Shown piece by piece: positions 30,590-33,457 of a stretch of 39,878 nt of DNA. Within the stretch, counting starts at the first letter, position 1. Each line of letters begins with the position of its first letter. The stretch lies in NCBI GenBank assembly GCA_024643655.1, contig JAHEMM010000003.1:1-39878 (forward strand), written 5' to 3'. A program made the translations under genes and the position numbers. This DNA is from Chitinophagaceae bacterium (GTDB taxonomy: Bacteria > Bacteroidota > Bacteroidia > Chitinophagales > Chitinophagaceae). Under the pieces are notes generated by a model. That model was not told the DNA's origin. It saw only the letters and a list, made by a program, of their open reading frames with translations, and did not search any database.

Positions 30590-31150
30590 CTAGTTTGTAG
30601 CAGTAATAATATTGAGCCCTTTTGAGCTAAATAGATTCGAACAGTCTTTTTGTTTACAGTGTATGATTACTAATTCAGGATGTTTTTTCATTTTCGCAAT
30701 AAAATAAGCAATTTCCTGATTGGCATATTTATCATGAGTATCTTTTACGGCAGTTCTTTTTCCAAAAAGTGCATCGGCTTCATCAAATAATAAAATCCAA
30801 TTATTAGTCTCAGCTTTATTAAAAATTTTATCAAGATTTTTCTCTGTTTCGCCAATATACTTCGTTATAAAAGCTGAAAGATCAACTTTATAAATACTTT
30901 GCTTTTTTTTAAGCATTAACCATTTGTTAATACTGTTCACATCAGTTTTACTCATACTTTTTAAAACCAAATTACCCGCCTTCATACTCTTTGCTGTAAA
31001 AGCTTTTTCCAACTGAAGGCTTAACCCTTTTTTTATTGTAATTTGACTATCTAATACAGAATATTTAATGACAGAAGATTCATTCTCTTTCTGAGCAAAA
31101 GAAAATATATTGAACATTAGGCATAGAAGTAATAAATAGTTTTCTTTCAT
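30590..31150 (-). CDS. Secreted AAA-like protein lacking Walker A
   Basis: A 186-residue protein with a signal peptide (1-19, ending FSFAQ). Residues 86-165 match the second half of an AAA+ ATPase core very closely: YKVDLSAFITKYIGETEKNL (87-106), Walker B ILLFDEADALFGKR (118-131), and DTHDKYANQEIAYFIAKM (137-154). No P-loop (GxxxxGKS/T) is present, and the segment after sensor 1 (VIIHCKQKDC) has lost the TN motif. Normally these domains are cytosolic. It starts 9 bases after the gene ending at 31160. Either a repurposed exported binding domain or decaying gene; the frame is intact and the Walker B is kept. Confidence 0.75.
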   Translation of the reverse strand: MKENYLLLLCLMFNIFSFAQKENESSVIKYSVLDSQITIKKGLSLQLEKAFTAKSMKAGNLVLKSMSKTDVNSINKWLMLKKKQSIYKVDLSAFITKYIGETEKNLDKIFNKAETNNWILLFDEADALFGKRTAVKDTHDKYANQEIAYFIAKMKKHPELVIIHCKQKDCSNLFSSKGLNIITATN

Positions 31151-31159
31151 AAAATATTA

Positions 31160-31729
31160 TTAACGGTCAGCTTTTATTCTGGTACAATCGATCTTCCATG
31201 TAGGATAAGTAACAGATTTATCTTTACTCACCCACTCTCCTATCCACTTATATCCTTTTTCCGACATTTCATAAAATGTAAGACGATAAGAGCCTTCTGC
31301 GCCATTTGGCGCATTTTGTTCTTTATATAAAACAATTTTGTCGTTTTCTTTTTTACCTTCCCATGCCGGAAGTACAGAAGGAACTCCTTTAGTAGTATAA
31401 TAATGAACATACCATTTTGCACTATCCTTATTATATTGCCTTATACTGCCTGAATGAATTCCGTCGGCTTTTAATGTTTCATCCTGAATGGCTGTTCCGT
31501 TCATTATATACCTGAATTTCCAAGTCATAGAAACAGGAGCGGCCCAACTGCCATCAGCAGCCCTTGCAACCGAACTACAATCGCAAATTCCTATCAGTGG
31601 TGCAAAGTCCTTTATTTGTTCAGGTGCTGAAGGATTGGGACTTCCAAATGGATTTTCATTATTTGCTTCATAATCATTCTGACCGAATACAAATAGAGGA
31701 AGCAGCAAAAGAATAGTACAATATTTCAT
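31160..31729 (-). CDS. Secreted DUF1579-like protein
   Basis: A 189-residue protein with a signal peptide (1-16, VFGQ). The mature part has a lipocalin-like, all-beta pattern: FAPLIGICDCSSVARAADGSW, MTWKFRYIMNGTAIQDETLKADGIHSGSIRQYNKDSAKWYVHYY, YRLTFYEMSEKGYKWIGEWVSKD. The DUF1579-like match is by pattern; ligand and role are unknown. It is 9 bases upstream of the AAA-like gene and probably shares its transcript, both being secreted. Confidence 0.7.
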   Translation of the reverse strand: MKYCTILLLLPLFVFGQNDYEANNENPFGSPNPSAPEQIKDFAPLIGICDCSSVARAADGSWAAPVSMTWKFRYIMNGTAIQDETLKADGIHSGSIRQYNKDSAKWYVHYYTTKGVPSVLPAWEGKKENDKIVLYKEQNAPNGAEGSYRLTFYEMSEKGYKWIGEWVSKDKSVTYPTWKIDCTRIKADR

Positions 31730-31844: not shown

Positions 31845-32057
31845 TTATACAGAAAGTAATGTCAATGCAGCAGCTTTATCTTTGGAAAATACTTTCAGCT
31901 TTACCCCTCCCAGCGGATTCATACCTAATACATTTTCATCATGTACAAAAGATTCAATACCTGCTTCTTTTAGTTTGGTTTGCATTACGCTAGCTTCAAC
32001 CATATCATTAAATGTACCGATCACTTCTACGGTTTCTCCAGTATGATGTGTGTCCAT
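31845..32057 (-). CDS. DUF2007 (putative signal-transducing) small protein
   Basis: A 70-residue protein made of one DUF2007 domain: VEVIGTFNDMVEASVMQTKLKEAGIESFVHDENVLGMNPLGGVKLKVFSKDKAAALTLL. The fold is a PII-like ferredoxin sandwich; members are common and unstudied. It stands alone, with a terminator after it. Confidence 0.88.
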   Translation of the reverse strand: MDTHHTGETVEVIGTFNDMVEASVMQTKLKEAGIESFVHDENVLGMNPLGGVKLKVFSKDKAAALTLLSV

Positions 32058-32221: not shown

Positions 32222-33457
32222 ATGAAAAAACAGTTTCTTGCTTTTATTATAGTAATTCTTAGTTCTGCTTACACATATGGATGTGGAAATAAAAATTCAG
32301 ACGCTTCGAACGAATCGGCAGATACAACAAAATATCCTCCTGTTGAATCAAAAGCTGCCAATACAAATTACAAGCCTGCATTTAAAACACAAACAAGGGC
32401 ACCCGGTGTAAAAACTACAACTCCCTATAAGGTTGATAAAATTGCAGAAAATCTTGGTCGCCCTTGGGCTATTATTCCAATGCCAGATGGTCGTTTATTA
32501 ATGACTGAGAAAAAGGGTTTCATGATGATTCATGATGCGAATGGTGGATTTCTAAAGAAGATTACTGGATTACCTGCTGTAGAAGATGGCGGGCAAGGAG
32601 GACTACTTGATGTGGTATTGGATCCAGAGTTCACTAAAAATAAAATGATCTATTGGTCTTTTTCAGAAAAACAAGGTGCTGGAAACTTAATGGCAGTTGC
32701 TAAAGGGATGTTGAATGAAGCCGCTGGTACCGTGCAAAACATTTCTGTTATTTTCAGAGCTACACCTGCTTTAAATAGTCGTTTGCATTTTGGATCAAGG
32801 ATGTTGTTTGATAAGAATGGTTATCTTTTTGTAAGTACCGGCGAACGTTCTATTCTTGAAGGAAGAAAACAAGCTCAATGGTTATATTCGGGATTGGGAA
32901 AAATATTTCGTATAACAAAGGATGGCAAACCTGCACCTGGTAATCCCTTTATCAATAAGAAAGATGCGATGCCCGAAATTTATGCTTATGGAATCCGCAA
33001 TGCACAAAGCCTGGATATTCATCCGGCAACAGGTGAATTATGGGAAGCAGAATTTGGCCCCCGCGGTGGCGATGAACTAAATATTATTAAATCTGGAAAA
33101 GATTATGGTTGGCCTACGATTACTTATGGTATCGAATATGCAGGAGGTAAAGTTGGCGATGGTATTCAACAAAAGTCAGGCATGGAGCAACCCGTTTACT
33201 ATTGGGATCCGGTACTCTCCCCTTCCGGAATGTCTTTTTACAAAGGCAATACAATCCCAGAATGGAAAAATAATTTATTTATTGGCGGGCTTAATAGTGC
33301 CCATATTGCACGTCTTGTAATTGTCAACAATAAAGTTGTTGGTGAAGAAAGATTATTGGAAGATAAGAAAGAGCGATTCCGTGATGTCGCTTATCATAAC
33401 GGCATGCTTTATACTGTAACAGACAACGGTAATTTATACCGTATCAGTAAGAAGTAA
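32222..33457 (+). CDS. PQQ-type soluble glucose/sorbosone dehydrogenase
   Basis: A 411-residue secreted protein, probably a lipoprotein (Cys21 in TYGC, after a hydrophobic N-terminus). The GSDH six-bladed propeller begins near 70 (AENLGRPWAIIPMPDGRLLMTEKKG) and shows LPAVEDGGQGGLLDVVLDPEF, RLHFGSRMLFDKNGYLFVSTGER, EIYAYGIRNAQSLDIHPATGELWEAEFGPRGGDELNII and PVYYWDPVLSPSGMSFYKG. It would oxidise sugars in the periplasm with pyrroloquinoline quinone. No pqq biosynthesis gene is near. The 164 bases upstream contain a near -7 sequence TAATTTTA at 32192-32199. Confidence 0.93.
   Translation: MKKQFLAFIIVILSSAYTYGCGNKNSDASNESADTTKYPPVESKAANTNYKPAFKTQTRAPGVKTTTPYKVDKIAENLGRPWAIIPMPDGRLLMTEKKGFMMIHDANGGFLKKITGLPAVEDGGQGGLLDVVLDPEFTKNKMIYWSFSEKQGAGNLMAVAKGMLNEAAGTVQNISVIFRATPALNSRLHFGSRMLFDKNGYLFVSTGERSILEGRKQAQWLYSGLGKIFRITKDGKPAPGNPFINKKDAMPEIYAYGIRNAQSLDIHPATGELWEAEFGPRGGDELNIIKSGKDYGWPTITYGIEYAGGKVGDGIQQKSGMEQPVYYWDPVLSPSGMSFYKGNTIPEWKNNLFIGGLNSAHIARLVIVNNKVVGEERLLEDKKERFRDVAYHNGMLYTVTDNGNLYRISKK

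Follow-up and report, generated by a model that had tools for sequence, protein, structure and literature searches.

An AAA+ core with a signal-peptide-like start and without P-loop or lid in Chitinophagaceae, and a putatively exported orphan sheath protein as candidate partner

ATP, on which AAA+ motors depend, is normally unavailable in the periplasm. ClpV of the type VI secretion system, an ATP-driven cytosolic protein of another AAA+ family than the one considered here, acts on a contractile sheath. In the Photorhabdus injection system the ATPase Pvc15 loads effectors, and modelling predicts that Lys528-Tyr529 of its pore loop 1 contact the substrate (PMC11495950). The luminal domains of LAP1 and LULL1, which activate Torsin in the endoplasmic reticulum, have an AAA+ fold with a disulfide and without Walker A or C-terminal domain; LAP1 retains the arginine finger and has lost Walker B (PMC4358337). 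Here we describe a protein encoded in a 39,878-nucleotide stretch of a Chitinophagaceae genome (contig JAHEMM010000003.1, the whole of which is called the window) that joins a signal-peptide-like start to a conserved AAA+ core devoid of P-loop and lid. A preliminary description of the stretch had proposed an exported protein with Walker B and without Walker A at 30590-31150, and at the level of sequence this proved real: Walker B is present in the context FDEADALF, GK[ST] is absent and the start resembles a signal peptide. We lean towards reading it as a functional pseudo-ATPase that stems from the AAA+ ATPase of contractile injection systems of the extracellular kind (eCIS) and has been moved out of the cytoplasm. 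Its likely partner would be a putatively exported orphan sheath protein from another part of the same genome (G000:C88:9382-10608, G000 being the window's own genome). The features of the gene are the following.

30590..31150, minus strand: predicted exported, lidless AAA+ protein without P-loop (ATG-start open reading frame of 186 aa; PF00004 match; homologues)
31091..31150, minus strand: signal-peptide-like N-terminus, residues 1-20 (MKENYLLLLCLMFNIFSFAQ), read from sequence and hydropathy
30935..30958, minus strand: degenerate Walker A, residues 65-72, SMSKTDVN, between beta1 and alpha1, placed by alignment with 85 full-length relatives and by the model
30848..30862, minus strand: presumed pore loop 1, residues 97-101, KYIGE, by analogy with Pvc15
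30779..30793, minus strand: Walker B, residues 120-124, LLFDE
30713..30742, minus strand: DTHDKYANQE, residues 137-146, start of alpha3, from the reading frame and the model
30641..30658, minus strand: Cys165-x4-Cys170, sensor-1 region

The match of the window protein to Pfam AAA (PF00004) spans profile positions 23-108 of 131 (E 2.7e-11, 44.5 bits, cut-off 21.2) and is well above chance; no NCBIfam model matched the protein at its cut-off. Among the features of an active AAA+ ATPase it has the profile match and the Walker B DE pair, and lacks Walker A (no GK[ST]), the sensor-1 Asn, the arginine finger and the C-terminal lid; the N-terminal domain is missing as well. AlphaFold predicts, at medium confidence (pLDDT 70, pTM 0.65), the order beta1-alpha1-beta2-alpha2-beta3-alpha3-beta4-alpha4-beta5, which would be the entire five-strand alpha/beta core, and the reading frame ends at beta5. 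The label 'half-AAA+' given earlier is therefore wrong for the modelled fold; what the protein lacks is a P-loop sequence, an arginine finger and a lid. The DTHDKYANQE segment noted at that time is present, and is unconserved in four of the homologues introduced below (G041, G259, G207 and G132). With the 85 full-length relatives as tblastn queries, no lid or P-loop fragment turned up in the rest of the window at an E value under 0.1, the best matches outside the reading frame being at E 0.12 or worse. A mis-assembled or frameshifted normal AAA gene was rejected on the basis of this empty search together with the independent homologues. The 50 listed matches of a structural search were all AAA+ proteins; LAP1 and LULL1 were not among them, an absence that carries no weight.

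Homologues with both a signal-peptide-like start and a missing P-loop occur in two genera: in 4/42 genomes of the window's own genus (G000, G024, G026, G041) and in three of the four genomes of genus g92 (G259, G207, G132). These counts come from a profile built on the seven exported sequences, with N-termini read by eye. When the window protein itself served as query, 7/42 own-genus genomes matched, and three besides its own carry a short P-loop-less protein. No further exported members were seen among the short matches fetched from two overlapping family draws (394 and 391 genomes), for which 26 short strong matches, three own-genus loci and four short matches from the second draw were inspected; weaker matches, longer frames and a 254-aa frame in G670 from the order search were not inspected, so that the exported count is a lower bound and more may exist. 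Seventy-nine of the 80 kept public-contig loci have a P-loop, and the one without (L066) encodes the same protein as the G026 homologue. The preliminary description had named two outcomes that would speak against it, a P-loop in the homologues and a lack of orthologues; the Walker A site is without a P-loop in all seven, and homologues were found in both genera. A P-loop pattern match in G024 was set aside as a chance match within its signal peptide.

Comparison of motifs across the relatives revealed what was lost and what was kept. All 85 full-length proteins have GK[ST], K[YF], the Walker B DE pair and the sensor-1 Asn, 84 have RR, and none has a sensor-1 Cys. In 22 unexported lidless relatives, GK[ST] occurs once, the Walker A lysine 18 times, K[YF] 19 times, DE 20 times, the sensor-1 Asn 16 times and RR 14 times. 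The exported proteins all have K[YF], DE and a sensor-1 Cys (7/7 each), and none has GK[ST] or RR; an Asn falls inside the three-residue sensor-1 window in one of them, and the second cysteine of the Cys-x4-Cys pair is found in six. Walker B and pore loop 1 therefore outlast Walker A. The lidless set takes in mini_G762 and two sequences cut at a contig edge (G117, G090); G193 and G687 (short on the 5' side) and G198 and G774 (lid present) were dropped from it, and G264 (contig edge) was not entered.

The nearest relatives of the window protein are longer P-loop AAA+ proteins, mostly of 400-500 residues, with core identity of up to 65% over 81 residues. Some of them share a contig with sheath and tube genes (e.g. 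G259:C50, G016:C54). We take these full-length Bacteroidota relatives to be Pvc15/Afp15-type eCIS AAA+ ATPases, and by this homology the exported proteins would descend from the AAA+ ATPase of such systems. No injection-system genes were seen among the neighbours of the window gene that were read, part of the window's open reading frames having been searched. In one scan of viral contigs, a weak one that used peptide patterns from one sequence, no relative was found that would point to a phage origin of the exported form.

In a tree of 57 rows the seven exported proteins make up one side of a branch (94/51, SH-aLRT weak), with mini_G762 as sister (96/90); several branches are long, and the grouping is tentative. 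The G762 protein is lidless and P-loop-less and has the Cys-x4-Cys pair, with no clear signal peptide, so either the losses preceded export or G762 lost its signal peptide. The unexported lidless proteins do not form a single group in this tree. They represent a broad family (L129, L134, L135 and others) in which Walker A is altered, Walker B is retained and the protein ends after beta5. Some may still bind nucleotide, judging by the Walker A lysine in 18/22 and RR in 14/22, and those of genus g10 are under strong selection, with ratios of non-synonymous to synonymous substitution (dN/dS) of 0.032-0.044. Five bases separate an unexported lidless AAA gene of G362 from the orphan sheath gene downstream of it. 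Another such AAA gene (L165 201-752), with the variant Walker A GPAGSGRK, heads an injection-system locus in G161; the contig begins just before it, and a full-length ATPase could lie beyond. The adjacency in G362 and the position in G161 suggest an ancestral link between lidless AAA and sheath.

A PF04984 search of 31 genomes gave one sheath match in the window's own genome, on a different contig from the window gene. Exported sheath proteins, as judged from their N-termini, were found in two forms.

L160 9382-10608, L161 9908-11419 and L162 11147-12343: orphan sheath proteins with signal-peptide-like starts, each gene beside a selD-like gene
L206 1495-1944 (G259, 149 aa) and L175 1306-1740 (G036, 144 aa): sheath C-domain only, predicted exported, each gene beside a response-regulator-like gene, in two genera

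The sheath protein of G000 (L160 9382-10608; 408 aa) starts MKILRIYFFSFFLFFSLAATAQ, a signal-peptide-like stretch that precedes the usual TPGVY, and matches PF17482 (E 1.2e-13), PF04984 (32.9 bits, cut-off 31.4) and the tail sheath family phrog_17610 (E 2.8e-56). G024 and G026 have the same whole-sheath arrangement (503 and 398 aa), TPGVY being lost in G026. In all three genomes the gene lies head-to-head with what we take to be a selD-like gene, as does the unexported orphan sheath gene of G213 from another genus, so the sheath gene seems to gain or lose its signal peptide in place. The C-domain proteins of G259 and G036 match tail-sheath PHROGs (E 1.4e-12 and 2.2e-10), and Pfam gave nothing above cut-off for either. 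A profile of the exported sheath C-domain matched 15 of 52 genomes, and N-termini were signal-peptide-like only in G000, G024, G026, G259 and G036. On a poorly resolved C-domain tree, built without G069, G050 and G030, these five rows need three changes, and 22 of 500 shuffles were as low, which leaves a single origin of export unsupported. No tail tube (PF06841, E 0.001) was detected in G000, G024, G026, G036, G041 or G132, where a diverged tube could escape. Orphan tail-tube genes elsewhere (PF06841; L228 1486-1986, L230 1426-1905, L232 1489-1968, L240 1213-1689 and L244 1483-1947) encode, when read from the first ATG, an extra 11-24 hydrophobic and basic residues before the usual tube start. 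These are perhaps a membrane-binding helix, or merely the product of an upstream start.

Exported AAA and exported sheath (whole or C-domain) occur together in four of the seven exported-AAA genomes (G000, G024, G026, G259). Within the own genus, each is found in 4/42 genomes, three of them shared (Fisher p 0.0014); restriction to the 33 near-complete genomes gives three AAA, four sheath and three shared (p 0.0007), and addition of g92 gives seven AAA, five sheath and four shared among 46 (p 0.0010). We consider the window protein to be probably an exported, non-hydrolysing binding protein and partner of the exported sheath protein, the partnership being what we infer from this co-occurrence and the common ancestral machine. 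In the proposed course of events, an eCIS motor ATPase would have shed the loop that binds ATP together with the arginine finger, the sensor-1 Asn and the lid, and retained the core, pore loop 1 and Walker B; a signal-peptide-like start would move the resulting pseudo-AAA+ protein out of the cytoplasm. There, without ATP chemistry, the retained pore-loop face would hold a peptide or subunit. This role is assigned by analogy, because we take the invariant K-Y/F as the counterpart of Lys528-Tyr529 of Pvc15. The acidic Walker B, kept without a P-loop, may be structural or serve partner binding, and a putative Cys165-Cys170 bond could perhaps stabilise the fold. The likely client would be the exported sheath protein or its C-domain, and the two would be exported remains of the motor and sheath of an injection machine, with the periplasm or the surface as their place of action. 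A more specific version, which we put forward only tentatively, is that both the sheath and the ATP-dead AAA+ core have signal peptides of their own and combine, periplasmically or on the surface, into a structure or holdase complex that does without ATP; unexported sets of sheath and lidless AAA, such as the adjacent pair of G362, would then represent an intermediate stage.

Several observations weigh against this proposal. The Fisher tests ignore phylogeny, so that their p-values overstate the association. G132, listed as 100% complete, has the exported AAA, and no sheath (PF04984 and C-domain profile) or tube was detected in it. The C-domain profile likewise found no exported sheath in G041 (83% complete) or G207 (97%), and G036 has an exported sheath domain without the exported AAA. 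The cysteine pair of G762, present without a clear signal peptide, shows that the link between cysteines and export is not a strict one. Export is itself predicted from the N-terminal sequence alone, and the medium confidence of the fold model counts on the same side. Finally, the AAA and sheath genes sit on different contigs in 4/4 genomes that have both.

These separate contigs, together with the three genomes (G132, G041, G207) in which the exported AAA comes without a detected exported sheath, would also fit an exported pseudo-AAA whose work does not involve the sheath. It could serve in the periplasm as a chaperone-like or peptide-binding protein, by itself or together with some unrelated client, and the exported sheath would be a separate matter in a merely shared lineage. 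We regard this as possible and rather doubtful: in 4/7 genomes a signal-peptide-like start occurs on two separate genes that go back to one ancestral machine, with a p-value of 0.0014 in the own genus that takes no account of phylogeny, and an unexported lidless AAA gene adjoins a sheath gene in G362.

The N-terminus of the window protein (MKENYLLLLCLMFNIFSFAQ) follows what we take to be the pattern of Bacteroidota type-I signal peptides, with an 11-residue hydropathy maximum of 2.73. Maxima lie at 2.62-2.87 in the seven exported proteins versus at most 2.26 in other short relatives, and the last residues of the hydrophobic stretch are AQ in five of the seven, TQ in G026 and LLLAG in G024. These endings and values, as well as the sensor-1 Cys, argue against the N-terminus being a membrane anchor or a mis-called start with the AAA core left in the cytoplasm. 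That reading, which draws on the assignment of the signal peptide by its letters and on the non-signal N-terminus of G762, seems improbable to us.

The preliminary description had left a choice between a former ATPase turned binding protein and a decaying gene, and we favour the former, binding itself being conjectural. Decay of a truncated injection-system ATPase copy could explain the joint disappearance of P-loop, arginine finger and lid, the several long branches of the tree and a dN/dS that reaches 0.31 by YN00. The purifying selection that the preliminary description proposed to look for was found in g92, the genus in which it was measured: pairwise dN/dS of the exported AAA is 0.131, 0.224 and 0.181 by NG86 (0.13-0.22) and 0.158, 0.307 and 0.290 by YN00 (0.16-0.31). 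The neighbouring genes gave, by NG86, 0.064-0.165 (a yqgE-like gene) and 0.043-0.101 (the next gene), so the exported AAA is constrained, slightly less than its neighbours, and the somewhat higher ratio is a further point against our proposal. No internal stop codon interrupts any of the seven frames. In a 33-residue conserved block, 9-17 of the 22-31 identical residues differ in codon (29-74%; 15 pairs from six sequences), and constraint therefore acts on the protein. With these values, the synteny in G026 described below, the fact that all seven exported proteins have undergone identical losses and one and the same Cys replacement, and the low dN/dS of the lidless relatives in g10, we judge decay to be very improbable.

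We know of no periplasmic AAA+ partner, which counts against a trans-activator of another AAA+ protein. Such a role, modelled on LAP1 and LULL1 with Torsin, would be suggested by the like loss of Walker A and C-terminal domain, the secretory compartment and the cysteines (PMC4358337). It is extremely improbable given that the arginine finger, with which LAP1 is proposed to do its work, is absent from 7/7 exported proteins.

The surroundings of the window gene offer a weaker partner than the sheath.

31845..32057, minus strand: DUF2007 gene (PF09413), 64.7% identity to L146 5477-5695, beside the G026 homologue too
32222..33457, plus strand: gene presumed to be sugar-dehydrogenase-like, 73.5% identity to L146 5831-7063, syntenic in G026

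A pairing with the secreted 'DUF1579-like' gene immediately upstream (31160-31729), suggested at first, found no support. Pfam gives nothing for its product at E 1 or better, and none of the open reading frames of the fetched loci compared, the other six exported loci included, is a homologue at E 0.01; we rejected the pair. The window locus is syntenic with that of G026 over the DUF2007 gene, the sugar-dehydrogenase-like gene and several others, and in G026 the AAA gene directly adjoins the DUF2007 gene with no gene of the 31160-31729 type between them. We regard the exported orphan sheath as the better, still hypothetical, candidate. At L146 4882-5520 and 4004-4882, the exported AAA gene of G026 also overlaps the start of a presumably DnaJ/CbpA-like gene, followed by one we take to be CbpM-like; the overlap hints at coupled expression there.

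A conserved exported AAA+ core that retains pore loop 1 and, of the ATP-handling elements tested, only Walker B sets the fold's role in binding apart from its role as a motor. Should the sheath partnership be true, parts of an injection machine would have been reused outside the cytoplasm. The lidless relatives whose Walker A is altered, about two dozen in number, form a natural set on the role of Walker B without a normal P-loop. Full-text searches of an open-licence library, from which subscription papers are mostly absent, turned up no account of a comparable exported sheath or AAA core.

Set against known systems, the proposed role resembles that of ClpV in bringing an AAA+ protein together with a contractile sheath. 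The full-length eCIS AAA+ ATPases are closest, being alike in core homology, pore loop 1 and Walker B. The window protein differs from them in its signal-peptide-like start and in lacking Walker A, sensor-1 Asn, arginine finger, lid, N-terminal domain and an injection-system locus. Pvc15 has tandem AAA domains by description, and the likeness is drawn with the Bacteroidota full-length forms, not with the Pvc15 sequence. The unexported lidless mini-AAA proteins share its ancestry and the end at beta5, with GK[ST] absent from 21/22 and Walker B present in 20/22, and differ in having no clear signal peptide. LAP1 and LULL1 are similar in the AAA+ fold, the missing Walker A and C-terminal domain, the secretory location and the cysteines, with no common descent implied. 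The motif pattern of LAP1 is the opposite, however, since the window protein retains Walker B and the arginine finger is the part lost from the exported proteins, and it should therefore not work as LAP1 does.
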